Shown here piece by piece: positions 38,749 through 61,259 of a stretch of DNA of 64,000 nucleotides. Position 1 is the stretch's first letter; each line of letters opens with the position of its first letter. The notes beneath the pieces were generated by a model. That model had not been told where the DNA came from, ran no database searches, and saw nothing but the letters and a program-made list of their open reading frames with translations. The stretch comes from Clostridia bacterium (GTDB lineage: Bacteria; Bacillota; Clostridia; Christensenellales; CAG-138): positions 78,087 to 142,086 of the forward strand of contig JAFZRT010000029.1 of assembly GCA_017619735.1 (NCBI GenBank), given 5' to 3'. The translations under genes and the position numbers were made by a program.

Positions 38749-38760
38749 TCGGAATTAAAG

Positions 38761-38796
38761 AACTGCCGCTTCATTAGAAGCGGCAGTTTTCTTTTA
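38761..38796 (+). terminator. Rho-independent terminator after glnA
   Basis: A perfect 12-bp stem (38761-38772 with 38777-38788) and ATTA loop are followed by TTTTCTTTT. The T tract covers the stop codon of the convergent recombinase gene. On the minus strand the hairpin is followed only by CTTTA. Confidence 0.93.
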
Positions 38797-40098
38797 TCCG
38801 ATTATGCTTTTTACGTGATGCTTTATGAGCTTTCCGGAAACCGGTGAGCGCAGGATCAGATATGTTTCACCGTTCTTTATCCTGACAGACCGCACGAATG
38901 CCCGGATAATGAACGAGCGTTCCTCGCACGACAGCTTTCCGATATTCCGCGCTCTTTCAAAGAACCGGCCGATCTCGTCGCGCTTGACCGAAAACAGGTC
39001 CTTTTCGGAGGCGATCCTCCTCAGCCGCATGGAATACACGTTTTTGAGGTCGGTTTCATTCTCCAGCCGTTCCTGCAGCTCCGTGCTATAGTCGCCGGAG
39101 CACACAAGCCCGATATCCTCGCGGAAAGCATGCAGGAGCTTGTTGTATTCGGCGGCAGCCGGCTCGAAAGCGGCTTCGGCCTGCGCCTTTTCCTTCATTA
39201 CGAAACCGTTATAGAGCACGTCCGCATTATCGTCAGTCGCCGAAGATACGATCAGTTCTTCGGTTTGGGCGAACAGGGCGTCGAAGTCGGCAAGATAACA
39301 CGAGGTATCGCACGCGAAGGACGGCGCAATAACGCGCGCGTCGACGATCGGACGGTCGGCCGAGAGCCGTAACGGGAAAACTTCAGTATCGTATTCAGGG
39401 GGATAATCCCTCTCGAGCCGTTCCTTTGCGAGCAACCATTTTTCATACGTGACTATCGCAGGCAGATGATAGCCCTTCTTCGACTGCAGGCCGAGGTATC
39501 TCTCGTTGCGCAGAACGGTTTTGACCGTCATGTTGCCGAACTTCTTGTTCCTCGTCGAAACGGCTCCGTCGATAGCGCGGCAGATATCCTTGATGCTCAA
39601 ACCGGCGATGTACAGATCGAATATCCTGTTGACCACGGCGGCGTTCGCCTCGTCGATCACCGCTCTGCCGCCTTCGACCCTATATCCGAAAGGAGGCGTC
39701 CTCCTGAAGTCGGAAAACGTGAAATGCTCCGGCATCCGAAGGCCGTACTCCGTCTCCCATTCCACCGCTTTTCCCGTGAAAGCTCTTACGGCGGTCACGA
39801 TCTCGCGTCGGCAGTCCGATGCGTGCTTTCGTGCATAGATTACGCGAACGCCGTTCCTTTTCAGAAACAGCTCGTTCTCGAGCCGTATGTACTTATCATC
39901 GCCAAGGGACGAATACGAATCGATCAGTACGAGGCCGCACGCTTCGAGCTTGACTATGTTCTGCAGCTGGCGGAAGCCCGAATACCCGCATTCGCCGTCT
40001 GAAAGAACAAGCATGAGTTTGATCCCATGCTTATCCGCTGTTTCCTGTATGAGGGCACGGCCTTCGTCCGTGCCCCTGTAATAACCTATAGCATCCAT
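38794..40098 (-). CDS. Degenerate large serine recombinase-like protein
   Basis: A 434-residue protein with the layout of large serine recombinases: resolvase-like N-domain (1-125), recombinase domain (about 140-245, RTPPFGYRV, then NMTVKTVLRNERYLG) and a C-terminal coiled region. The catalytic site is lost. The usual YARVS is YYRGT, with Thr10 in the place of the nucleophile. The DRLSR motif is DSYSS (60-64), losing both arginines. The zinc-ribbon cysteines are also absent. The DNA-binding parts remain. ATG 40098 shares its A with the DUF885 gene stop (a GTG at 40101 is also in frame), so it is translationally tied to the envelope operon. I expect a non-recombining DNA-binding function, or a decaying gene. 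Confidence 0.8.
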   Translation of the reverse strand: MDAIGYYRGTDEGRALIQETADKHGIKLMLVLSDGECGYSGFRQLQNIVKLEACGLVLIDSYSSLGDDKYIRLENELFLKRNGVRVIYARKHASDCRREIVTAVRAFTGKAVEWETEYGLRMPEHFTFSDFRRTPPFGYRVEGGRAVIDEANAAVVNRIFDLYIAGLSIKDICRAIDGAVSTRNKKFGNMTVKTVLRNERYLGLQSKKGYHLPAIVTYEKWLLAKERLERDYPPEYDTEVFPLRLSADRPIVDARVIAPSFACDTSCYLADFDALFAQTEELIVSSATDDNADVLYNGFVMKEKAQAEAAFEPAAAEYNKLLHAFREDIGLVCSGDYSTELQERLENETDLKNVYSMRLRRIASEKDLFSVKRDEIGRFFERARNIGKLSCEERSFIIRAFVRSVRIKNGETYLILRSPVSGKLIKHHVKSIIG

Positions 40099-41927
40099 CA
40101 CTTGTTCATGTAGTCGTACATGATATCCATGAAGCTCGGGCCGTAGCTGAGGTACTCGGCAAAGAACTCCTTATGATCGGCTTCGGTAGCGGGAGCCGCC
40201 TTGGCGTAGATGTCGGACAGATATGAGTATCCGATGGCATAGCTCATCGCGTAGGAAGGCATCGTTACCGCATATTCGTAGAAGATGTCCGCCGCGGAGG
40301 AAATACCGTAGTCCTCCAGATAATCGCTGACGTCGTCTATGTCCCAGCCGTAATAATTGACCTTGATGCTTATGTAAGCGGGCAGGAAAACGTTCGTGAA
40401 CGTGCTCTCGCTGTTCATCATGACACAGAACTCCCTGCCGATATCGTCGCAGTGCTTGGCTACGAAATCCTCGGTGAATACGGTCCATGCCTCGGCGTAG
40501 CCGGTGGGCTCGAGCACCTGCTGGGAAAGGGACATGTTTTCACGGCTCCTCGTATAGAGGAACTGGTACATATGCCCGGGCAGAGTCTCGTGCGCCACGG
40601 TCAAAAGATCGTCGGCGTTTTCGGAGGTGGGGTTGATCAGCATCACGTTGTTGTAATAGTCGTCAAAACCGGGGTTGAGATATGCCGCGGGGCTGAAGTC
40701 CTCCGCGATATCCTCCGGGACTTCGATATACTTGAGGGAAAAATCGGGAAGCTCTGGATAGTACTTTTCGATGAAGCCCTTCAGCCATTCGACGTTGTTA
40801 TCAACAGAGCCGAATGAGATATCCTCTCCGTATCTGTCCAGTATGTCGTCCGGGCCGTTGATGATGGCGCGGTACATATCCATATAGCAGTTCTTGCCCA
40901 TGGCTTCGAGGAGCTCCGCGATACGGTCCATGTCTTCCATCGTCGCGCCTTCGTACCTTGCGTCGAGCTCGAAATACGCCTTCGCGTCCTCTCCCCTGTC
41001 CGCAGCGCCGACAAACGGCGTACAATCGCCTCTGTGGGCTTCCAGCGTGTCGGCAAGCTTGGAGTAAGCCGGGAGAACGTATTCGAGTACGGCCGTCCTG
41101 TTGCGCGTACGAAGGAGCTCGCACTCGTCGTCCGTATAGCCGTATTCCTTTGCCTTTTCAATGATCTCTTCGAAGTAGCTGATGAGGAAGCTGTCCTCTC
41201 CGTTTGCGGCGAAGTTACGGCAGGATTCTATGACCTGATCGAGCGCCGTCTCGCACATGAAGAGGCCGTGCTCCGCCTTTTCGACTTCGAACTGCTCTAT
41301 CTGCCCCAGGTAACGGGCCATGTCCTCGATCAGTGTGAGATACATCTCAACGTCGTCGGCGTTCCTGATGCTCAGGCAGATCATGGTGAGCGGGAGCATG
41401 GAATGATCGCCGTTCACGGGTTCGAGCGGCTCGTCGTAATAGTAGTAGTCCTCGTACATTATCTGGACGTCGAACCAGCGCATAATGGCGTCGTATGCGT
41501 GCTTATTGTTCTCGCTGAGGGTATCGTAATCGATGAGCTCCATGCGGGAGAGCATATCGCGGTAATACTCGATGCTCTCGATATGCGCGTCGTAGGAAAG
41601 CTCGCCCCAGCCGGGATTGACGTCGGCGGGATCAATGCCGAATCTCGCGGGATCGGAGACGATGAACTGATTGTATGCGTCCGCGCCGGAGGTCACCAGA
41701 TCGCGGAAGAGCATGAGATCGAAGAGCTCGAAATCCTCGTCGGCTTCGCTCTTATAGCCCTCCGGTATCTGCGTGGGCTCGGGGGCCTCCGTTGCTTCTG
41801 GCGTGGTCTCGGAGACGTCTGTCGGCTGTGCCGTGGGATCGTCAGAGGGCTTCTTCCAATACTCCCTGCAGCCGATGGTGAACGCCGCGAAAACGATGGC
41901 GAGTATTAAGCAGATGTACTTTTTCAT
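40098..41927 (-). CDS. DUF885 family lipoprotein, probable zinc carboxypeptidase-like protein
   Basis: A 609-residue exported protein with lipoprotein signal (FTIGC, Cys20), a Pro/Thr/Glu linker (about 25-60) and a DUF885 domain for the rest. The key motif AHETLPGHMYQF at about residue 443 has the HExxxGH zinc-binding pattern of the family, followed by GYAEAWTVFTED with a third likely ligand Glu. The family is a predicted metallopeptidase; substrates are not known. AGGAGGTC precedes the start 4 bases upstream. In the operon it follows the DHHW gene by 16 bases. Confidence 0.88.
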   Translation of the reverse strand: MKKYICLILAIVFAAFTIGCREYWKKPSDDPTAQPTDVSETTPEATEAPEPTQIPEGYKSEADEDFELFDLMLFRDLVTSGADAYNQFIVSDPARFGIDPADVNPGWGELSYDAHIESIEYYRDMLSRMELIDYDTLSENNKHAYDAIMRWFDVQIMYEDYYYYDEPLEPVNGDHSMLPLTMICLSIRNADDVEMYLTLIEDMARYLGQIEQFEVEKAEHGLFMCETALDQVIESCRNFAANGEDSFLISYFEEIIEKAKEYGYTDDECELLRTRNRTAVLEYVLPAYSKLADTLEAHRGDCTPFVGAADRGEDAKAYFELDARYEGATMEDMDRIAELLEAMGKNCYMDMYRAIINGPDDILDRYGEDISFGSVDNNVEWLKGFIEKYYPELPDFSLKYIEVPEDIAEDFSPAAYLNPGFDDYYNNVMLINPTSENADDLLTVAHETLPGHMYQFLYTRSRENMSLSQQVLEPTGYAEAWTVFTEDFVAKHCDDIGREFCVMMNSESTFTNVFLPAYISIKVNYYGWDIDDVSDYLEDYGISSAADIFYEYAVTMPSYAMSYAIGYSYLSDIYAKAAPATEADHKEFFAEYLSYGPSFMDIMYDYMNK

Positions 41928-41943
41928 TTTGACCTCCTGATTG

Positions 41944-43011
41944 TCAGTAACCCAAGGAACTCACGTACTCGTACAAAAGGTCGAGATTGCGCTCGACGAG
42001 CTCTATTACGACGATATCCGGATCCTTATCCTTGATGAAATCCGTCTTGTACGGAAAATAGCTGTTCATGTAGAGAGATCCGACCGACTGACTAAGTATC
42101 GGCTGCAGCGAGCGGCCGAATGAGTCGTGGTAGATCACCATTACGCGGTCGTTGATGTCGGAATGGGTCTCGACCGTCTTGTCCCTGTCGAAATTGACGG
42201 GGCGCTTTGAAGTGTATTCAGCGAACTCCGGATAGATTATCCTCTCCTCCTTATAGTCGGTGGAGGGATAAACGAAATTGTGAAGGTCGCCCGTCCTGTC
42301 GATCTCGACGGTATAGGTATAGGCGTCGTGCTGTTCGAGGCCGAACTGCTCAGCAATATCGTTGTAGACGAGCATGGCTCCGAAATTGTTCCAGTGTGAG
42401 TCGTGCTCGTAGTAGACCGTCCTCTCCGCCTTAGCCTTCAGCAGTATCGATTTGGCGTCGATAACGCGAACGTTCCTTTCGACAAGCGCCTCGGTCAGCA
42501 TATCGATATTCCGAGCAGCGTCGGTCGGCTTAAGATACCCGGGCATGTACTCGGGGTAGATGGTCGCCTTATTGGGCGCGGTCATGAAAGCGAATGCGGC
42601 GCCGTCCTTCGCAAACTCGGCGGAAAGGTCGGAAAGGTAGTCTGCTATCGAGCTTATCTGCTCCTCCGTGAGCTGATCGATCCCGAGGTAATCGTCAAGC
42701 GTTTCGCCGTAGAAGATGTGATGGTTCTTCCCTATCACCGCGTTCGTTCCGTTGAAATCGCGAAGAAGCGCGATATCGGCAATATTGAATGCGGAAACGA
42801 GATACTCGCGAAGCGCGAAATGATCCTCAATGTATTTATCGAACTGGGAAGCAAAAACGGGATTTATCTTTCCCTCGTTTACCAGCTTCGGCATCTGAGC
42901 CAGAGGCCTGTTCTCACGGTTGGCGTTTTTGAAGCCGCAGAGCATGAGGACCGACGGCGTCATCAAAGCCGCGATCATAAGGATTATGAATACTGTTCTG
43001 ATCTTTTTCAT
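41944..43011 (-). CDS. DHHW/AlgX-like protein, partner of MBOAT acyltransferase
   Basis: A 355-residue protein with one N-terminal membrane segment and a periphery-facing SGNH-like domain. Marks are ENRPLAQMPKL, the DSHWNNFGAMLVYNDIA stretch (AlgJ/AlgX DHHW-type active-site Asp and His) and VIYHDSFGRSLQPILSQ with the Ser nucleophile. In alginate and poly-glycan systems such proteins take acyl groups supplied by the MBOAT partner and place them on the polymer. ATG at 43011, 11 bases after the MBOAT stop, follows ACGGAG; an open frame extends further upstream but is not homologous. Confidence 0.9.
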   Translation of the reverse strand: MKKIRTVFIILMIAALMTPSVLMLCGFKNANRENRPLAQMPKLVNEGKINPVFASQFDKYIEDHFALREYLVSAFNIADIALLRDFNGTNAVIGKNHHIFYGETLDDYLGIDQLTEEQISSIADYLSDLSAEFAKDGAAFAFMTAPNKATIYPEYMPGYLKPTDAARNIDMLTEALVERNVRVIDAKSILLKAKAERTVYYEHDSHWNNFGAMLVYNDIAEQFGLEQHDAYTYTVEIDRTGDLHNFVYPSTDYKEERIIYPEFAEYTSKRPVNFDRDKTVETHSDINDRVMVIYHDSFGRSLQPILSQSVGSLYMNSYFPYKTDFIKDKDPDIVVIELVERNLDLLYEYVSSLGY

Positions 43012-43022
43012 GCTTTGCTCCG

Positions 43023-44429
43023 TTAAAACTGCGTGTAGATCGAGGGGTTGTAATTGCCCGAAGCGATAAAGAACAGGCAAATCACGAGCAGCACTGCGGC
43101 AAGACCGTATCTGATGCACGCCTGAAGCCTTGGCTTGCCGTCGAGCTTTGCGCAGAGCATCTTCGCAAGCGGGGTCGCGGCAATTACCGCCGCGATGAAA
43201 ACGGCGATCGTAGTCGGCTTGAAGACCGCGGAAAGGCCCGCAACGGTCGCATTATCAACGGCAAAGCCGGTGAACATGTTCTTTATCATAGCCCATGCGT
43301 AAGCCATATTGGGCGAATTGAATATCGCAAAACCGACCGTGACGACGATCATCGTGTACAGCCATGTGACGATCTTCGGCAGACGAAGCTTCGTCTTTTT
43401 CAAATAGTTCTCCCCCAGCAGGAACGCACCGTTATAGGCGCCCCAGACCACGAAAGTCCAGTTCGCGCCGTGCCAGAGGCCGGTGAGCAGGAAGACTATC
43501 ACCTTATTGAGGCCGGTCCTGAACGCTGACTTACGGTTGCCGCCGAGAGGGATATAGACGTAGTCGCGGAACCACCTTGAAAGGGTGATATGCCATCTGC
43601 GCCAGAAATCGGTCATGCTGTAGGCGATGTAGGGATAATTGAAGTTCTGCGGGATGGTGAAGCCGAACATGCGGCCGAGGCCGATCGCCATCTGCGAATA
43701 GCCCGCGAAATCGAAATAGATCTGCAGCAGGAAGCAGACAGCTCCCGCCCAGGCGTATGCCGCGTTGAGCGAAGACGCCTCGATCCCGTAAACGTAGGCC
43801 GTCACCCGGCCCAACGAGTTGGCGATAACGAGCTTCATCGCGAGGCCTATGACGAACAGGCGCAGGCCCTCAGCGATGTTTTCGACGGTGAGCTCCCTCT
43901 TTCCGAGCTGCTCGGATATGGCGGAGTAACGGATGATGGGCCCCTGCACGAGCTGTGCGAAGAAGGAGATGTAGAGAAGGAAATCGCCGAAATCCTTCGT
44001 CGGCTCTATGTCGCGGCGGTAAACGTCGATGACGTAGCTCAGCGCCTGGAAAGTGAAGAAGCTTATCCCGAGCGGGCTCACGATCTTCGGCGCGGGAAGC
44101 GCCGTCCCTAAAAGGCCGTTCACCGAATCGACGGCGAAAGCGGCGTATTTGAAGACGGCGAGCAGACCGATATTGAATATTACGGCGATAATGAGAAGCG
44201 GTTTATTGTTCCTGCCCTCGCCCCTCTGCCCCATCCACAGCGCGATAAAGAAATTGACCGCGGCCGAGAATACCATGAGGAGCACATAATAAAGCCCGCC
44301 CCATGCATAGAATACGAGGCTTGCGGCTATCAGCAGCCAGTTGCGCACCTTATGCCAGGGCAGGACGAGATACAGCAGGAATACTGCCGGCAGGAATATG
44401 AATATGAAATTGGCGGAAGCAAACTCCAA
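43023..44429 (-). CDS. MBOAT family O-acyltransferase (AlgI/DltB-like)
   Basis: A 468-residue protein with about 11 membrane segments. The invariant histidine lies in FLLTGLWHGANWTF at about residue 319, and FDFAGYSQMAIGLGRMFGF and MTDFWRRWHITLSRWFRDY are textbook AlgI-family stretches. MBOAT proteins carry acyl groups (usually acetyl) across the membrane for O-acylation of wall polymers. Its adjacent DHHW gene is the expected transfer partner. The polymer is not identifiable from sequence; L,D-transpeptidase and dipeptidase neighbours suggest peptidoglycan or a polymer attached to it. Confidence 0.95.
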   Translation of the reverse strand: MEFASANFIFIFLPAVFLLYLVLPWHKVRNWLLIAASLVFYAWGGLYYVLLMVFSAAVNFFIALWMGQRGEGRNNKPLLIIAVIFNIGLLAVFKYAAFAVDSVNGLLGTALPAPKIVSPLGISFFTFQALSYVIDVYRRDIEPTKDFGDFLLYISFFAQLVQGPIIRYSAISEQLGKRELTVENIAEGLRLFVIGLAMKLVIANSLGRVTAYVYGIEASSLNAAYAWAGAVCFLLQIYFDFAGYSQMAIGLGRMFGFTIPQNFNYPYIAYSMTDFWRRWHITLSRWFRDYVYIPLGGNRKSAFRTGLNKVIVFLLTGLWHGANWTFVVWGAYNGAFLLGENYLKKTKLRLPKIVTWLYTMIVVTVGFAIFNSPNMAYAWAMIKNMFTGFAVDNATVAGLSAVFKPTTIAVFIAAVIAATPLAKMLCAKLDGKPRLQACIRYGLAAVLLVICLFFIASGNYNPSIYTQF

Positions 44430-44444
44430 AGATCAGTTCTCCGT

Positions 44445-45074
44445 TCAGTTGGAATAGCTGGGCGAATAGACGTAGATCTCGGTAACGACGTCGTCGGTGA
44501 ATACGAACTGTATCCTCATCTCGCCGATGTTCTCGGGATCGGCGGACTTGGTGTAGGTGAGATAGTAGCCGTCGTCGAAGAAGTTGTCGCCGTAGGCTGC
44601 GGTCACCTCGTCGCGGGTGGCTCCGACGCCGATGTTCCTCGCGGTGACGAAATCCCCGCCGAATATGCTGAACATCTCGATAATGTCGGTATCGCCGTCG
44701 GGAACCGTGCTGACGGTGATGTTCTCATACTGGAAGGTCTTGTCGTAGCCGTTGTAGACGCAGCTTATGGACTCGTTGTACTCGTAGCCGTCGCCAAGAG
44801 CGGCAAGTATCTCGGCGCTGTCGACGCGGACGGGGTATTTGACACCGTTGTAGATAATAGCCATATCGAAAGCTTCGTCGAAGGGCTGACCGGCGTGATA
44901 GTCGACCGGTTCGTCGGTCACGTCGACTGTTTCGGTGTTTTCGGCCCTCTCGGTATTGTCAACGGGAGCGGCGGTGGGATCCGCGGGCTTTACGGGTTCG
45001 TGGGTGCAGCCGATCATAACGGCGGCGAACAGCACGGCAAGAAGGAGCGCCGTGAGCTTGACGATGTTCTTCAT
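44445..45074 (-). CDS. Uncharacterised lipoprotein
   Basis: A 209-residue protein not recognised by motif. It has a lipoprotein signal (VMIGC, Cys23), a short Pro/Thr/Glu linker (24-60) and a compact acidic domain (about 65-209) with alternating beta-like segments (MAIIYNGVKYPVRVDSAE, ENITVSTVPDG, IGVGATRDEVTAAYGDNFFD, RIQFVFTDDVVTEIYVY). The repeating 'GxTxxEVxxxYG' flavour recalls BamE/SmpA-type small lipoprotein folds, but this is only a resemblance. It is in the envelope operon between the dipeptidase and MBOAT genes. Confidence 0.75.
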   Translation of the reverse strand: MKNIVKLTALLLAVLFAAVMIGCTHEPVKPADPTAAPVDNTERAENTETVDVTDEPVDYHAGQPFDEAFDMAIIYNGVKYPVRVDSAEILAALGDGYEYNESISCVYNGYDKTFQYENITVSTVPDGDTDIIEMFSIFGGDFVTARNIGVGATRDEVTAAYGDNFFDDGYYLTYTKSADPENIGEMRIQFVFTDDVVTEIYVYSPSYSN

Positions 45075-45101
45075 TCTTTGTTCCTCCTGAAAGGTAATTA
45101 C

Positions 45102-46196
45102 TTAATCCATGCTGTAGCCCAACTGATTGGCCGTATACATGGGGATATCCTTCATATCGAAATCGAGCACTATGAAGGAAAGATAGTTCTCATCGGAAAA
45201 ATGCCACCACTCGGAATTGATTATCTTGAATCCGCATTCGGTCATTATCCGGGTCATATAGTCCACGTTCCTGCGCTGCTCGGGCGTCCATCCGGCGGAG
45301 TTCGACCTGTTGGACAGCGAGTTGAACGTGTGCATCGGGGTCGGGAAATCGAGCTCACGCCCGTCGGGGCCGATAAGCGTCATATCGACGGCGGCCGCCC
45401 TGTTGTGGTTCGACGCGCTGTTGTACGGGTTTGCGATGTAGCTCGAGTTCTGGACGATGTCATACAGTATGTACTGTACGGATTTGGGACGGTAGCAGTC
45501 GTAGATCTTGATCGTGTAACCGTCGTTTTTGAAGAGCTTTGCCGCTTCCGCGAGCTTCAGCGCTGTCTCGTACTGCAGTACGGGCACGGGCCTGCTGTAG
45601 AGCACGTTGCCGGTGAAGTTCTTGTCGGTGCCGAATATCTGATAGATCTCGATATCGGGGATGACGAGGCGGATATCGATGAGCTCGCTCTTGAGCATTA
45701 TAGGATTGCCGTGCTCGTCCAGCGCGATGTTTCCGTTGTTGTCCTTCTTGTACTCGTACATGGGCGCCATGTATCCGTACAGCGGCTCGTCGGCGGGGAC
45801 GATGCTCCTGCAGTCGCAGTAGCAGATCTCGCCGTCGAGATAGACCTTGACAAAATCGGCGTCGGCCGCCTCGATAAGATGGACCTTGTCCTCATACCTG
45901 AGCTTGCGGACGACCCTGCTGTTCTTGTCCGGTGCGGAATAGATCTTGAGCTCGTTCACGCGGGACTTGTAAAGGAAGGTGACCATCGGAGTCGACGTGG
46001 GCTCAGCGGAGGGAGCTTCGGTCGGGATCTCGGTCGGCACAGCGGTAGGCTCGGCAGTCCGCTCCGGCGTCGCGGGCTCCTGAGTTTCAAAAGGAACCTC
46101 GGTGGGAACGTACACCTCGGGCGGGGCGAGCTTGCATCCCGACGATAATGCGATGAACACAGCGAAAAGAACGGCAAAAAGCTTCTTCACGTTCAA
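45102..46196 (-). CDS. VanX-like D-alanyl-D-alanine dipeptidase lipoprotein with SH3-like domain
   Basis: A 364-residue exported protein with lipoprotein signal (LSSGC), a Pro/Thr/Glu linker (about 24-70), an SH3-like domain (about 75-135) and an M15D peptidase domain (about 170-350). Zinc and catalytic residues of VanX/DdpX are present: YDCYRPKSVQ (substrate Arg), SNHNRAAAVDMTL (His and Asp) and SEWWHF (Glu and His). VanX is cytoplasmic; an exported form would act on stem-peptide dipeptides or free D-Ala-D-Ala outside the cell. It starts in the stop of the L,D-transpeptidase gene (ATGA). Confidence 0.88.
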   Translation of the reverse strand: MNVKKLFAVLFAVFIALSSGCKLAPPEVYVPTEVPFETQEPATPERTAEPTAVPTEIPTEAPSAEPTSTPMVTFLYKSRVNELKIYSAPDKNSRVVRKLRYEDKVHLIEAADADFVKVYLDGEICYCDCRSIVPADEPLYGYMAPMYEYKKDNNGNIALDEHGNPIMLKSELIDIRLVIPDIEIYQIFGTDKNFTGNVLYSRPVPVLQYETALKLAEAAKLFKNDGYTIKIYDCYRPKSVQYILYDIVQNSSYIANPYNSASNHNRAAAVDMTLIGPDGRELDFPTPMHTFNSLSNRSNSAGWTPEQRRNVDYMTRIMTECGFKIINSEWWHFSDENYLSFIVLDFDMKDIPMYTANQLGYSMD

Positions 46197-46915
46197 TCAT
46201 CTCCTTTTAGAGCGTCAACGTCCGTCGGGTCGTAACCCTTTCTCGTGATCTCGGGAACGTCCGGGCTCGTAGTGCCCCTGGGGCTTCCGTTAACGATCTC
46301 GAGCTTTGTGCCGGGAGGACAGTTGAAGTAGATGAACTTAGCCGCTTCGGTGACCATCCTCAAGCAGCCGCCGGTATTGGATGTGCCAATTCCCATCTCT
46401 CCGTTATAGTACCGCGGCCATATCCTCGAAGGATCCTGCGCGCCGTACAGCGGCGAATGGATGAACAGATTGCCCCAATATGAAGTCGCATACTGGACGC
46501 TGCCGCCGAGGCGGAAATCGTACCAGCGGTATCTCGTTTCGGACAGGGTGAAGAGGCCGATGGGCGTCTTGTTCCCGCCGTGGCCGATCCTGTACTGCTT
46601 TACGATAACGGTGTAGTTGTAATTCTCGTCCTTGCCGTAAATGGTGAGCGTATAGGAGCCCTTTTCAACGTAAAGGTAATACGGATGCTCCGGATCGAGA
46701 TCGACGACAGGCGTAGGTGTCGGCTCCGGGGTAGGATCGGGTTCCTTCGTCGGCACGGCCGTAGGCGCCGCGGTCTGCTGCACGTTTTCGGTTATATCGA
46801 CGGCCTCGATATCATCGGGGTCGGGCACATTTTCATGGCACGCGCAGAATACGAGCGGCATAAGGGCCGTAAGCGCTGCGAGCAATATGAATGCTGCTTT
46901 TTTGAAAAACTTCAT
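46193..46915 (-). CDS. L,D-transpeptidase (YkuD) lipoprotein
   Basis: A 240-residue exported protein with lipoprotein-like signal (FCAC, Cys25), Pro/Thr/Glu linker (about 40-70) and a YkuD catalytic domain (about 80-215). FIHSPLY and TSNTGGCLRM hold the His and the nucleophile Cys. L,D-transpeptidases form 3-3 cross-links or attach proteins to peptidoglycan. The usual SHGC is TGGC, a mild change; the Cys and Arg are kept. It is the first gene of the seven-gene envelope operon. Confidence 0.9.
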   Translation of the reverse strand: MKFFKKAAFILLAALTALMPLVFCACHENVPDPDDIEAVDITENVQQTAAPTAVPTKEPDPTPEPTPTPVVDLDPEHPYYLYVEKGSYTLTIYGKDENYNYTVIVKQYRIGHGGNKTPIGLFTLSETRYRWYDFRLGGSVQYATSYWGNLFIHSPLYGAQDPSRIWPRYYNGEMGIGTSNTGGCLRMVTEAAKFIYFNCPPGTKLEIVNGSPRGTTSPDVPEITRKGYDPTDVDALKGDD

Positions 46916-46945
46916 TTCAGTCTCCTAAATCAACAATCAACTTTT

Positions 46946-46974
46946 ATTATATCACATTATTATCCGCAATTCAA
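46946..46974 (-). promoter_or_regulatory. Sigma-A promoter of the envelope operon
   Basis: Minus-strand TTGAAT (46974-46969), 17 bases, TATAAT (46951-46946) with a TG one base before the -10. TTAGGAGA precedes the first ATG. No other promoter was seen within the seven genes. Confidence 0.8.
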
Positions 46975-47008
46975 TCCGAAAACCTATCATTGAGGATTAT
47001 ATTGCTGA

Positions 47009-47037
47009 TTGAACGGGGGCGGCAATTATGCTATAAT
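47009..47037 (+). promoter_or_regulatory. Sigma-A promoter of the DUF512-der operon
   Basis: TTGAAC (47009-47014), 17 bases, TATAAT (47032-47037) with TG at one base before the -10. It is divergent from the envelope operon promoter; the two -35 boxes are 34 bases apart. Confidence 0.8.
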
Positions 47038-47055
47038 AATTGTTCGGAGGAAGAA

Positions 47056-48369
47056 ATGAAGCATCTCGTTACAAAGGTAGACGGCGGTTCCATCGCCGAT
47101 GAGGTAGGCGTAAAGGCCGGCTGGAAGCTTGTGAGCGTCGACGGAAAGACCATCCGCGACGTTATTGATTATGAGCTTTTCACCAATAACGAGTTCATTT
47201 CGGTCGTGTTTGAAACCGACGGCGGCGAGACCGCGGTATTCGATATCGAAAAGGAGGTCTGGGAACCTCTGGGCCTCAATTTCGAATCCGGTCTCATGAG
47301 CCCCGTCCGTCAATGCGCGAACCACTGTGTATTCTGCTTTATCGATCAGATGCCGCGAGGTCACCGCGACACCCTCTATTTCAAGGACGACGACTGGCGT
47401 CTTTCGCTCATAATGGGCAATTACGTGACGCTTACAAACGTCGGCGACGCGGAGTTCAAGCGCATACTCGACAGGCGCGTTTCGCCGCTCTATATCTCCG
47501 TTCACGCGACGGACGGCGCCGTCCGCAAGCAGATGATGCGCAGCAACAACGCCGACAGGATAATGGAACGGCTCACGGCTCTGCATGAACACGGGCTGAA
47601 GTTCCATGCGCAGATAGTTCTCTGCCCCGAACTGAACGGCGGAGAGATACTGAAAAAGAGCCTGCGCGATCTCTATTCGTTGGCTCCCGATGCGCAGTCC
47701 GTCGCCGTCGTTCCCGTAGGTCTCACCCGCCACAGGGAGGGTCTTTATCCGCTGAAGCCGATGAGCATGGAAGATGCGCGCGAGGCCGTCCGCATAGTGG
47801 ACGAGTTCAATTCCGAGACGCATGCGGAGTTCTTTGCATTCTGCTCCGACGAGATGTATTTGAGAGCGGGCCTCGAACTGCCTCCTTATGAGTATTACGG
47901 CCCGTTCGATCAGATCGAGAACGGTGTGGGCCTGTTCCGACTGTTCGAGGACGGAGTGCTCACAGCCCTCGGCGAAAGGTCTCCCCTGCCCGGCCGCGTA
48001 AGGATCACCTCCGTCTGCGGCGTGGCGATAGCGGATTGCCTGCGCGGACTGTTCAAAAAACTCCGGCCCTACGGCATCGAGATAGACGTGCTACCCATCA
48101 GGAACGATTTCTTCGGGGACAGCGTCACAGTGAGCGGCCTCGTCACGGCGGGCGACATACTTAAGCAGACCGATGGAAAGGGCCTGGGCAGCGCGCTCAT
48201 AATGTCCGGCTCCATGCTTCGCGAGATGGACGACATATTCCTCGACGGGATGCGCCTTCCCGAGCTCGCGGAAAAGATGGGCATCACCGTAAATCCGATG
48301 CCGGCAGACGACGGCGAAGCATTTATCGAAAAACTGTTTGAATTATCCGAAAGGTTATTATCCGAATGA
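47056..48369 (+). CDS. DUF512 family radical SAM protein with PDZ domain
   Basis: A 437-residue protein with an N-terminal PDZ-like domain (about 5-70, [20 protein letters not shown]), the iron-sulfur motif [11 protein letters not shown] (a CxxxCxxC cluster) at about residue 92, and a C-terminal DUF512 domain (about 210-420, [29 protein letters not shown]). The function of the family is unknown; it is usually beside der, as here (ATGA overlap). Start at 47056 follows CGGAGGAAG; the frame extends upstream through the promoter and is not coding there. Confidence 0.93.
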
Positions 48370-49726: not shown

Positions 49727-49735
49727 CTTGCCGCG

Positions 49736-49765
49736 TCATTTTGTGCGGATCGGCGTCATATCAAT
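49736..49765 (+). promoter_or_regulatory. Candidate sigma-E promoter of spoIVA
   Basis: TCATTTT (49736-49742), 14 bases, CATATCAAT (49757-49765), 34 bases before the spoIVA ATG. It resembles the sigma-E pair (-35 like TCATATT, 14 bases, -10 like CATACAAT) with one extra base in the -10. Mother-cell control fits this gene; matching is by eye. Confidence 0.45.
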
Positions 49766-49799
49766 TAACTGCGATATGAAAACCGAAGGGAGAAGCTTA

Positions 49800-51284
49800 A
49801 TGGAAAGAGCGGAGCTTTACCGTGATATAGCGAAAAGGACGCAGGGAGACATCTACATCGGCGTCGTCGGCCCGGTCAGGACGGGCAAATCCACGTTCAT
49901 TAAAAGGTTTATGGACACTCTTGTAATCCCCGAGATCGAGAACGAATACCAGAAGGAACGCGTCATAGACGAGCTCCCGCAGAGCGGCTCTGGGAAAACG
50001 ATAATGACTACGCAGCCGAAGTTCGTCCCGAACGACGCTGTATCGATACGGATCGGGGACGATGAATCGACCGAGCTTTCGGTAAGGATGATAGACTGCG
50101 TCGGATACATGGTGAAGGGCGCGCTCGGCGGATCCGAGGAGGAGATACCGCGCATGGTCCGTACTCCGTGGTTCGATCACGATATCCCTTTCGACGACGC
50201 GGCTGAGATCGGCACGAGAAAGGTCATAACCGAGCATTCGACCGCAGGCATTGTCGTGCTCACCGACGGCAGCATCACGAGCATAGCAAGGAGCGATTAC
50301 TCCGCCGCCGAGGAAAAGGTGTTCGCTGAAATCAAAGCGACGGGTAAGCCGTATGCCGTGATACTGAACAGCACGCGTCCAACATCCGATGAAGCCGTAT
50401 CCTGCGCTGAGGAGATATCGGAAAAGTACGGAGTGAACGTGCTCCCGCTCGACGTAATGAGCATGGAAGCGGGCGGTATTAACGAGCTCCTTGAAAATCT
50501 GCTCCTCGACTTTCCCCTGCAGTCAGTGACATTCCAGATTCCGCGCTGGGTAACGGCGCTGGGATATGATCATCCGCTTGTAAACAGCGTCATCGATGCG
50601 CTGCGTTCGGCGCTGCCGGATGTATCGAGGATGCGCGATCACGGCAAGCTCGCCGCGGCTCTGACCGGGATAACGGATTACACGGCTCCGGAGCTCAAGA
50701 GGTCTACGCTCGGCGACGGCTGCGCATATTATCGGCTGGCTCCGAACGACGACGTATTCTACCGCGTGCTGAGCAGCGAATGCGGTTACGAGATCGCGAA
50801 CGAATCGGAGCTTATGAGCGCGCTGAAGGACTTCGTCGCCGCGAAGCGCGAGTATGACAGGATCGCCTCGGCGCTGATATCGGCTGAAGCGACCGGATAT
50901 GGCCTCGTGCCGCCCAAAATAGACGAGATGCAGCTCGACCGGCCGGAGATCGTGCGGCACGGGAACAGATTCGGAGTGCGTTTGAAAGCGCATGCATCCG
51001 GTCTGCACATAATGCGCGTGGATATCGAAAGCGAAGTCAACCCTCTTGTCGGAACTGCGGAACAGGGCGAGGAGCTTGCCGGTTATCTTATGAACAAGTT
51101 CGAGACCGATCCCGAAGCGATATGGTCTACGAACATATTCGGAAAACCCATTTACGACCTCGTGCGGGACGGCATGACGGGAAAGATCAACAACCTACCC
51201 GAGGACGTAAGGATGAAGCTGCGCGACACAGTGAACCGAATGGTGAACGACGGCTGCAACGGCTTGATATGCGTGCTTCTGTAA
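49800..51284 (+). CDS. spoIVA: Stage IV sporulation protein A (SpoIVA)
   Basis: A 494-residue morphogenetic ATPase that assembles the basement layer of the spore coat around the forespore. The N-terminal P-loop GVVGPVRTGKSTFIKRF (residues 21-37), and MTTQPKFVPNDAVSI, SLARS-like TSIARSDYSAAEEKVF and the hydrophobic C-terminus NGLICVLL are conserved. GAAGGGAG precedes the ATG at 49800. It is monocistronic between two terminators and has a sigma-E-like promoter. Confidence 0.98.
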   Translation: MERAELYRDIAKRTQGDIYIGVVGPVRTGKSTFIKRFMDTLVIPEIENEYQKERVIDELPQSGSGKTIMTTQPKFVPNDAVSIRIGDDESTELSVRMIDCVGYMVKGALGGSEEEIPRMVRTPWFDHDIPFDDAAEIGTRKVITEHSTAGIVVLTDGSITSIARSDYSAAEEKVFAEIKATGKPYAVILNSTRPTSDEAVSCAEEISEKYGVNVLPLDVMSMEAGGINELLENLLLDFPLQSVTFQIPRWVTALGYDHPLVNSVIDALRSALPDVSRMRDHGKLAAALTGITDYTAPELKRSTLGDGCAYYRLAPNDDVFYRVLSSECGYEIANESELMSALKDFVAAKREYDRIASALISAEATGYGLVPPKIDEMQLDRPEIVRHGNRFGVRLKAHASGLHIMRVDIESEVNPLVGTAEQGEELAGYLMNKFETDPEAIWSTNIFGKPIYDLVRDGMTGKINNLPEDVRMKLRDTVNRMVNDGCNGLICVLL

Positions 51285-59915: not shown

Positions 59916-61259
59916 ATGGAAAAGAACAAAAGCAAAAACGAGATAAATACCAAATACGTCGACGTGCTCGACGGCATACGAGCGATTAGCGTCATCATCG
60001 TGCTGATATTCCATTTTTGGCAGCAGACATGGATATTCCCCGTCGTCAGCACGCCTATTTTGAGCAGGATCGGGATAAGCCAGATAAACTTCACCCCGTT
60101 CGCGAGGGTCGGTTATCTCTTCGTCGACATGATGATCCTGATCAGCGGCTTTCTCTTGTTCCTCCCCGTGGCGAGGAACGCGCTAACCGGCGAACCGCTG
60201 ACGAAGTGGAAGGATTTCTTCCGCAAACGCGCCATAAGGATACTGCCGAGCTATCTGTTCTGCATAATCGCGCTGTTCGTTTACGAGCTCTCGACAGGCG
60301 GCTACGGCACTCCCGTCAACGCGGGCCTTGCCGCAAAGGATCTCATACTACACCTTCTGTTCCTGCATACATGGACCGTACCCACCTACCTCGCCACAAA
60401 GCTGAACGTCGTGCTGTGGACGCTTGCCGTCGAGGTGTGGTTCTACATACTGTTCCCCATCTTCGCCACCGTAATCAAGCGCAGAAAGGACGAAAAAACG
60501 TCGACAGCCCCCGTCGTCCGCGCCTTGATAACGGCCGCCGTGATGATCGGCATTTCGCTCTTCTACATTTACGGGTACGTGCTCAAAACGGGAAGCGCCT
60601 TCTCGAACGGCGTCGACGGGATATTTGCCTCGATCGGCTCCGGCATAAGGTCGAGCTACCTCGCGATGGTAATAAATCAGCTTCCCGCTTTCTTCGGCTC
60701 GTATGCGATAGGACTTATAGGCGCCTTCATCTATACTGCGCTTGCTGTGAAGATCAAACGCAAATGGTGGATCGGCGCCATAGGGACGGTGCTTTCGGCT
60801 GCGTTCATATGTCTTATCGTCATCATGATAAAGGACTGCGCTTCGCTCGACCTCAATTCAGCGCAGAACTGGCAGATCACGAAGCGGCTGCCTCTGGCGC
60901 TCGTATTCATGGGATTCATACTCTCCGCCGCTTTCGCATCGTCCTGGTTCAGATTCCTTTTCTCGAATCCGCTGATGCGGTTCCTGTCGGCGATATCGTA
61001 CAACCTGTACATATGGCATCAGTGGCTGTGCGTCAAGATCAAGAACGATTGGCGCATCCCTCGCTGGGAGGGCGACACCCCGCCCAATCAATGGGGCACA
61101 GCGGCAGGAAAAGCATGGAGCAGCAGGTATGCGATCATCATTACGGCAGCGGCATTCCTGGCGGCAATACTGGCAACGTACTTCTTGGAAAAGCCGGCCG
61201 CCGATCTGCTGAACGGCAGACTGTCGATCTACAACGGAAAGCTGAAAAAGAAGAAATGA
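59916..61259 (+). CDS. Acyltransferase family 3 membrane protein (OafA/YrhL type)
   Basis: A 447-residue protein with about 10-11 membrane segments. The N-terminal helix has LDGIRAISVIIVLIFHFW with the catalytic His, then GFLLFLPVARNAL and RRAIRILPSY-like RKRAIRILPSYLFC, and the C-terminal TYFLEKPAADLL. Such proteins O-acetylate peptidoglycan, lipopolysaccharide or antibiotics; the substrate here is unknown. The C-terminal SGNH domain of OafA is absent. An in-frame stop lies 15 bases upstream, so ATG 59916 is the first possible start, yet no ribosome site is visible. It stands alone on the plus strand. Confidence 0.9.
   Translation: MEKNKSKNEINTKYVDVLDGIRAISVIIVLIFHFWQQTWIFPVVSTPILSRIGISQINFTPFARVGYLFVDMMILISGFLLFLPVARNALTGEPLTKWKDFFRKRAIRILPSYLFCIIALFVYELSTGGYGTPVNAGLAAKDLILHLLFLHTWTVPTYLATKLNVVLWTLAVEVWFYILFPIFATVIKRRKDEKTSTAPVVRALITAAVMIGISLFYIYGYVLKTGSAFSNGVDGIFASIGSGIRSSYLAMVINQLPAFFGSYAIGLIGAFIYTALAVKIKRKWWIGAIGTVLSAAFICLIVIMIKDCASLDLNSAQNWQITKRLPLALVFMGFILSAAFASSWFRFLFSNPLMRFLSAISYNLYIWHQWLCVKIKNDWRIPRWEGDTPPNQWGTAAGKAWSSRYAIIITAAAFLAAILATYFLEKPAADLLNGRLSIYNGKLKKKK

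Follow-up and report, generated by a model that had tools for sequence, protein, structure and literature searches.

The window analyzed here, a stretch of 64,000 nucleotides from an uncultured species of gut Clostridia, contains a seven-gene operon in which two predicted cell wall peptide enzymes are encoded together with a predicted MBOAT-SGNH acylation pair and a lipoprotein, C, of no recognized family. The operon lies on the minus strand, from position 46915 to 38794, in the order A-B-C-D-E-F-G. Its genes are separated by 2 (A-B), 27 (B-C), 15 (C-D), 11 (D-E) and 16 (E-F) bases, and F and G overlap by four; the A-B spacing assumes that B starts at GTG 46190. These data confirmed the gene order, the span and the gaps of at most 27 bases or overlap described in an earlier note on the sequence. 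The single strong promoter proposed in that note was also found (TTGAAT-17-TATAAT with an extended -10 TG; 46946..46974, minus strand), and its motif aligns in all eight loci compared, namely, the window, six loci of the genus (g1) and L042 of the neighboring genus g12. At the other end, a strong bidirectional intrinsic terminator (38759..38790), with a stem of 12-14 bp and a T tail on both strands, is common to the operon and the convergent glnA gene. Pfam families were found for six of the seven products, the exception being C, which has neither a Pfam nor an NCBIfam family.

The predicted acylation pair and wall-peptide enzymes

Gene D (43023..44429, minus strand) encodes an MBOAT acyltransferase of 468 residues (PF03062, 1.1e-28, 100.9 bits) with an LWHG motif in which the catalytic His is conserved. 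Its closest solved relative is DltB (9e-30), with a score of 184 bits against the DltB equivalog cut-off of 375. The protein ends in NPSIYTQF, and the Tyr and terminal Phe of this tail were invariant in every orthologue C terminus read; in all genera read besides g1 and g12, the C-terminal motif of the MBOAT is F(I/L/M)YxxF. Such an invariant Tyr hands the acyl group to the SGNH enzyme; this shuttle has been demonstrated for PatA/PatB, and other MBOAT-SGNH pairs have been proposed to use it as well (PMC12148441).

The next gene, E (41944..43011, minus strand; 355 residues from ATG 43011), encodes an AlgX/PatB1-like SGNH acyltransferase with DSHW and DSF motifs, as known from circularly permuted SGNH transferases (PMC9487903). 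The D-x-H-W motif was present in all orthologues read, and the simple DSF pattern in about half of them. The earlier note had called this gene DHHW, but its Pfam family is ALGX (PF16822, 3.5e-20) with no match to the DHHW family, and its start is ATG 43011 rather than 43119. The only solved relatives found by sequence were PatB1 (5v8d, 7.7e-7) and AlgJ (4o8v, 8.4e-7). The D-E pair bears the motifs of a polymer acylation system, as that note had supposed for the MBOAT and its SGNH partner; transfer to a polymer is predicted from the sequence.

No DltA ligase, DltC carrier or DltX gene was found beside D among the seven operon genes or the flanking genes. As no ligase or carrier gene is present, acetyl-CoA is predicted as the most likely acyl donor. 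The acceptor could plausibly be peptidoglycan, because A and B would act on it and because signals of wall teichoic acid polymerase and SLH proteins are nearly absent from the genus. A teichoic-acid or SLH-linked acceptor was considered and rejected, since there were almost no PF04464 or PF00395 matches in 13 genus genomes (LtaS, TagA and CsaB not searched). Elsewhere in the window, positions 59967-61061 encode an AT3 acyltransferase (PF01757), a possible second surface O-acyltransferase.

The first gene, A (46193..46915, minus strand), encodes a YkuD L,D-transpeptidase lipoprotein of 240 residues, with PF03734 above cut-off (9.6e-11) and the conserved active-site motif HSPL...TGGCLR. It is followed by B (45102..46190, minus strand), which encodes an M15D VanX/DdpX-like peptidase lipoprotein with an SH3_3 domain, 362 residues long from GTG 46190 (PF01427, 4e-23). 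The zinc ligands, catalytic Glu and Arg of B are present (SNHNRAAAVD, EWWHF, YRP) and kept in nearly all orthologues. B aligns to VanX 1r44 as its nearest structure, and its best matches are the VanX/DdpX dipeptidases, with scores below the equivalog cut-offs of both the VanX model (48 bits versus 320) and the DdpX-type model (127 versus 176). VanX-type enzymes are specific for the free dipeptide D-Ala-D-Ala and VanY-type enzymes act on pentapeptides, while dual-specificity VanXY enzymes also exist (PMC6403190). The trimming of stem peptides proposed in the earlier note is thus weakened by the VanX/DdpX type of B. Two roles are conceivable for B, either the salvage of D-Ala-D-Ala set free at the surface or a carboxypeptidase function gained later.

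Lipoprotein signals were identified on four products, YkuD, M15D, C and DUF885, as previously noted. The Pro/Thr linkers that were reported with them are a lineage-wide feature and not specific to the operon, as unrelated lipoproteins of these genomes match on the linker stretch alone.

Lipoprotein C and its neighborhoods across the class

The most widely conserved link that we found, missed by the earlier note, is that of lipoprotein C with MBOAT-SGNH pairs. Gene C (44445..45074, minus strand) encodes 209 residues, and no Pfam or NCBIfam model reached its cut-off with the C sequence of the window or with the class-wide members tested. Its structure was predicted with a pLDDT of 94. Foldseek alone gave no match to this model at E < 0.001; a second-look aligner found YjgB (4ygt, DUF4309; Z 9.6), 4h0a (Z 9.9) and YfeY (Z 8.9), with CAP-associated domains among the best matches. 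In its predicted fold, C thus resembles DUF4309/YjgB, with no match to any sequence family, and the resemblance shows no function.

A profile built from 24 C sequences matched in 83 of 391 genomes of the class. From the higher-scoring matches, we sampled 40 neighborhoods outside the order, representing 15 families, and compared them with 20 control windows from the same genomes, most of them located some 30-40 kb away on the same contigs. An MBOAT gene was present within 3.5 kb of C in 27 of the 40 neighborhoods and in 13 of the 15 families. MBOAT, AlgX or other SGNH genes were found in 33 of the 40 neighborhoods and in none of the 20 controls; these counts are descriptive, as related loci are not fully independent. 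When adenylating ligase and YkuD genes were included as well, 36 neighborhoods contained at least one such gene, and the four that contained none corresponded mostly to lower-scoring matches.

The commonest gene order was adenylating ligase (of the amino-acid-adenylation type), carrier protein, MBOAT, SGNH and C. This ligase-acyl carrier protein (ACP)-MBOAT-SGNH-C operon, found class-wide (L255, L258, L259, L263, L268 and L276), is Dlt-like with scores under the Dlt equivalog cut-offs. In a second arrangement (L250, L251, L272 and L289), the order is C-MBOAT-AlgX. At L211, L214 and L215, the MBOAT and the C lipoprotein are accompanied by an FkbH-like protein of about 600 residues, suggesting a different, possibly glyceryl-type, acyl donor. 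Because the donor machinery varies among C loci, with none in the window operon, a ligase and ACP at loci between L255 and L276 and an FkbH-like protein at the three others, it is the transferase pair that C accompanies, rather than a particular acyl group.

YkuD genes also adjoin C in families f4, f31, f17 and f55, and a B-A pair is located next to it in f43 (L251). The link of the L,D-transpeptidase to the C acylation module is thus recurrent, as judged from gene neighborhoods. Taken together, C looks like an unrecognized accessory lipoprotein of MBOAT-SGNH polymer acylation, recurrently tied to L,D-transpeptidases.

Known acylation systems resemble the operon in part. As in PatA1/PatB1 of Bacillus cereus, which O-acetylate the secondary cell wall polysaccharide, an MBOAT is combined with a permuted SGNH transferase (PMC9487903), and PatB1 is one of the two best PDB matches of E. 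However, E is AlgX-type (DSHW, no DHHW match in Pfam), the genus is almost devoid of SLH proteins, and D and E share an operon with YkuD, M15D and lipoprotein C. The PatA/PatB system for peptidoglycan O-acetylation in Gram-negative bacteria similarly has an SGNH gene after that of an MBOAT with a C-terminal Tyr tail (PMC12148441), whereas the operon here belongs to a Gram-positive lineage, has additional lipoproteins and encodes SIYTQF in place of FXYXXF. As for the Dlt system (DltA-DltC-DltB-DltD-DltX), DltB is the nearest solved structure to D, and C homologues elsewhere end operons that resemble it, but D lacks an adjacent ligase, carrier protein and DltX and falls well under the DltB cut-off. 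Alginate and cellulose acetylation (AlgIJXF, WssFGHI) also involve an MBOAT and an AlgX-family protein, unlike the present case in that no polymer synthase gene is found near the operon. AlgF, an extra extracytoplasmic protein of unknown function (PMC9487903), is comparable to C as an additional component, which is an analogy and not a shown homology.

Conservation and composite origin of the operon

The relatives compared were metagenome-assembled genomes labeled Clostridia or Clostridiales; ruminant guts were the source of many. In every genus genome of adequate assembly, DUF512/der and glnA flank the block, and the split cases correspond to contig breaks. All seven genes are also present in genus g12 (L042). 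The operon is inherited vertically at this position in both genera. The divergent DUF512 gene has a conserved promoter-like motif that faces the operon promoter, and the pattern at 46946-47060 is kept among genus genomes.

Beyond these two genera, only the first five genes were seen. A-B-C-D-E is complete and in the same order in five genera, g1, g12, g22 (L111, L155, L156, L157 and L159), g15 (L112 and L158) and g5 (L154). Genus g9 (L153) has A-C-D-E without B, and g24 (L113) has duplicated A and C, in an array where a single M15D gene and an MBOAT at the contig end are surrounded by three YkuD genes and two C genes. Elsewhere in the order, family f4 has A-C-D-E, and f17 and f5 have C-D-E. 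In f31, the genes after A-B-C encode an FkbH-like protein and an MBOAT with an SGNH-like protein. Outside the order, in f43 (L251), C-D-E is flanked by the B-A pair in the opposite orientation. This neighborhood survey bears out the co-occurrence of YkuD and M15D with MBOAT-SGNH that the earlier note had left to be checked.

That note also had the activities operate at the same time, which is at odds with the loci that lack YkuD (genomes G010 and G012 and one contig of G003, where B comes first) or M15D (g9 and f4). Since A or B is missing at some loci, and since C-MBOAT-SGNH occurs without YkuD and M15D at several others, the activities are separable. G003 has two differing copies of the C-D region on contigs C1 and C24, with identities of 47% and 56% to the C of the window, and given these two copies it may be a mixed bin.

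In genus g10, the DUF885 gene and a G-like inactive serine-integrase gene form a direct pair, next to an MBOAT gene at L220 and without one at L237. As the core A-E occurs alone outside g1 and g12, and as the DUF885 and G-like pair is separate in g10, the gene content indicates that the operon is a composite of an older core, A-E, and a later two-gene tail, F-G. The seven genes, which had been taken as one set, are thus not an ancestral unit.

The tail gene F (40098..41927, minus strand) encodes a DUF885 metallopeptidase-like lipoprotein of 609 residues (PF05960, 1.4e-52) with a HETLPGH motif, of which the orthologues keep HExxPGH. Gene G (38794..40101, minus strand) encodes a 435-residue serine-integrase-like protein (PF07508, 1.1e-11, 45.3 bits) whose predicted fold matches a serine integrase in Foldseek (4.9e-11). 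Searches of PDB sequences with the G profile and with F yielded no matches. The recombinase-like label of the earlier note fits the domain and fold of G, which it shares with large serine integrases, but not its residues: aligned with four canonical large serine recombinases from related genomes, all G orthologues have lost the catalytic Ser (YxRxS), the active-site Arg and the zinc-ribbon Cys residues. The Arg motif is replaced, for example by SSLGDD where the canonical sequence is DRFARN, while the recombinase domain and the coiled-coil region are kept. That G might act on the operon as a working invertase or integrase was considered and rejected, the catalytic residues being gone.

G evolves the fastest of the seven genes. 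Differences by codon position were used instead of dN/dS, as synonymous sites looked saturated. The frame is open in all orthologues and changes at the third position exceed those at the first and second, indicating at the sequence level that G is under constraint. It is derived from a serine integrase, catalytically dead and probably a DNA-binding regulator. Host recruitment of transcription factors and of active recombinases from mobile elements is known (PMC8987985); we found no description in the open-access literature of an envelope operon that includes a dead enzyme of the large serine recombinase type.

Scans of the whole window for tRNAs and for Rfam families were both empty. The product of 49728-51284 probably resembles the spore morphogenesis ATPase SpoIVA, which would suggest that sporulation genes are kept in the lineage.

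A predicted cell-surface unit and the alternatives

Operon structure, motifs, conservation and the association of C with MBOAT-SGNH pairs were read directly from the sequences; from them we infer the acyl donor, the acceptor polymer, the role of C, the substrates of A, B and F, and the regulatory role of G. We propose, with moderate confidence, that the operon encodes one cell-surface unit centered on an MBOAT-SGNH O-acylation module, C-D-E, alongside the wall-peptide enzymes A and B. In this unit, C would be a dedicated accessory that docks the SGNH enzyme or presents the acceptor polymer. A would make or edit L,D bonds on stem peptides of the same wall, and B would hydrolyze D-Ala-D-Ala or D-Ala-D-X units. 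F, as a surface metallopeptidase, and G, as a DNA-binding regulator, would be later additions. The coupled wall remodeling and acylation put forward in the earlier note is supported in part, by the operon, the motifs and the recurrent YkuD and M15D neighbors; stem trimming is not supported as stated, and YkuD and M15D are each absent from some loci. More tentatively, C may represent a third extracytoplasmic component of Clostridia MBOAT-SGNH systems, whatever their donor, that in this lineage couples the acyltransferase to the L,D-transpeptidase, with 3-3 cross-linking and acylation both taking place on one strand.

Several observations weigh against the proposed unit. It relies on sequence, predicted folds and gene neighborhoods, with all activities predicted, and for the role of C on neighborhood and fold. 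The first residue of the FXYXXF tail is Ser in g1 and g12 and Phe in all other genera read. An AT3 acyltransferase is encoded in most genus genomes, and further MBOATs are present in the same genome as the operon. Among 13 genus genomes, PF04464 teichoic-acid polymerase had no match and SLH (PF00395) was matched in one genome, in a search that did not extend to LtaS, TagA and CsaB; the acceptors typical of related systems are thus not apparent. Lastly, the locus lacks A in three related genomes and has no B in g9 or f4; given these losses, joint action is not obligatory.

Those same losses, with C-D-E remaining, and the frequency of C-MBOAT-SGNH without A-B across the class would also be explained if one promoter served two independent envelope functions, a housekeeping A-B pair for L,D-transpeptidation and D-Ala-D-Ala salvage and an unrelated C-D-E module, joined by vertical inheritance only. 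We regard this as possible but doubtful. A and/or B adjoin C in f1, f4, f31, f17 and f55, and in the other orientation in f43 (L251), and this recurrence in several families is unexplained by vertical inheritance of one operon. The mobility suggested by the PF07508 domain and the large serine integrase fold of G, with G as the remnant of an element and the operon mobile or recently acquired, is highly improbable. This reading was rejected in view of the fixed DUF512/der-glnA position, shared by g12 and every genus genome of adequate assembly, and of the loss of the catalytic residues in all G orthologues; nor was a tRNA found in the window.

Other alternatives concern the relation between A and B. 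L,D-transpeptidases require tetrapeptide donors, which the metallo-D,D-carboxypeptidase DdcY supplies in Enterococcus faecium (PMC12729407). In the LdtFm/DdcY pair, as here, an L,D-transpeptidase is found with a metallopeptidase of D-Ala-D-Ala chemistry; unlike in that pair, B is a VanX-type lipoprotein in one operon with A, and no link to acylation is described for LdtFm/DdcY. B, which its lipobox places outside the cytoplasm, might thus, in line with the earlier note, trim stem peptides as a D,D-carboxypeptidase and so provide A with tetrapeptide donors, while D and E O-acylate the same wall polymer, and the existence of dual-specificity VanXY enzymes (PMC6403190) speaks for this. We nevertheless consider it rather unlikely, as the best matches of B are dipeptidases of a dipeptide-specific type, and as the loci of g9 and f4 have A but lack B, and those of G010 and G012 have B but lack A. 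Still less probable is that A frees D-Ala-D-Ala from pentapeptide stems and that B, by hydrolyzing the dipeptide, pulls the reaction and recycles D-Ala. This would account for a surface-anchored VanX-type enzyme beside an L,D-transpeptidase, but the reviewed L,D-transpeptidases use tetrapeptide donors (PMC12729407).

An operon combining an L,D-transpeptidase, a VanX-type dipeptidase and an MBOAT-SGNH pair was not found in the open-access literature, to which the search was confined, subscription papers lying outside it; this is in keeping with the earlier note, whose author knew of no described system with this set. Every catalytic family involved is already known, and what appears to be new is their combination and the C family found throughout the class.

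The polymers that MBOAT-SGNH pairs modify include teichoic acids, peptidoglycan, alginate, cellulose and secondary wall polymers, and few partner proteins have been described for the known systems. The putative accessory lipoprotein C is the most useful part of the finding. Since this lipoprotein family follows MBOAT-SGNH pairs in many families of Clostridia, irrespective of the donor, it hints at a component so far missed, one open to direct testing. The inactive integrase G, within the same operon, is a candidate for a recombinase turned DNA-binding protein. Finally, that an L,D-transpeptidase and a VanX-type peptidase are repeatedly linked to the module suggests coregulation of L,D cross-linking and wall acylation in gut Clostridia, which would bear on their tolerance to beta-lactams and lysozyme.

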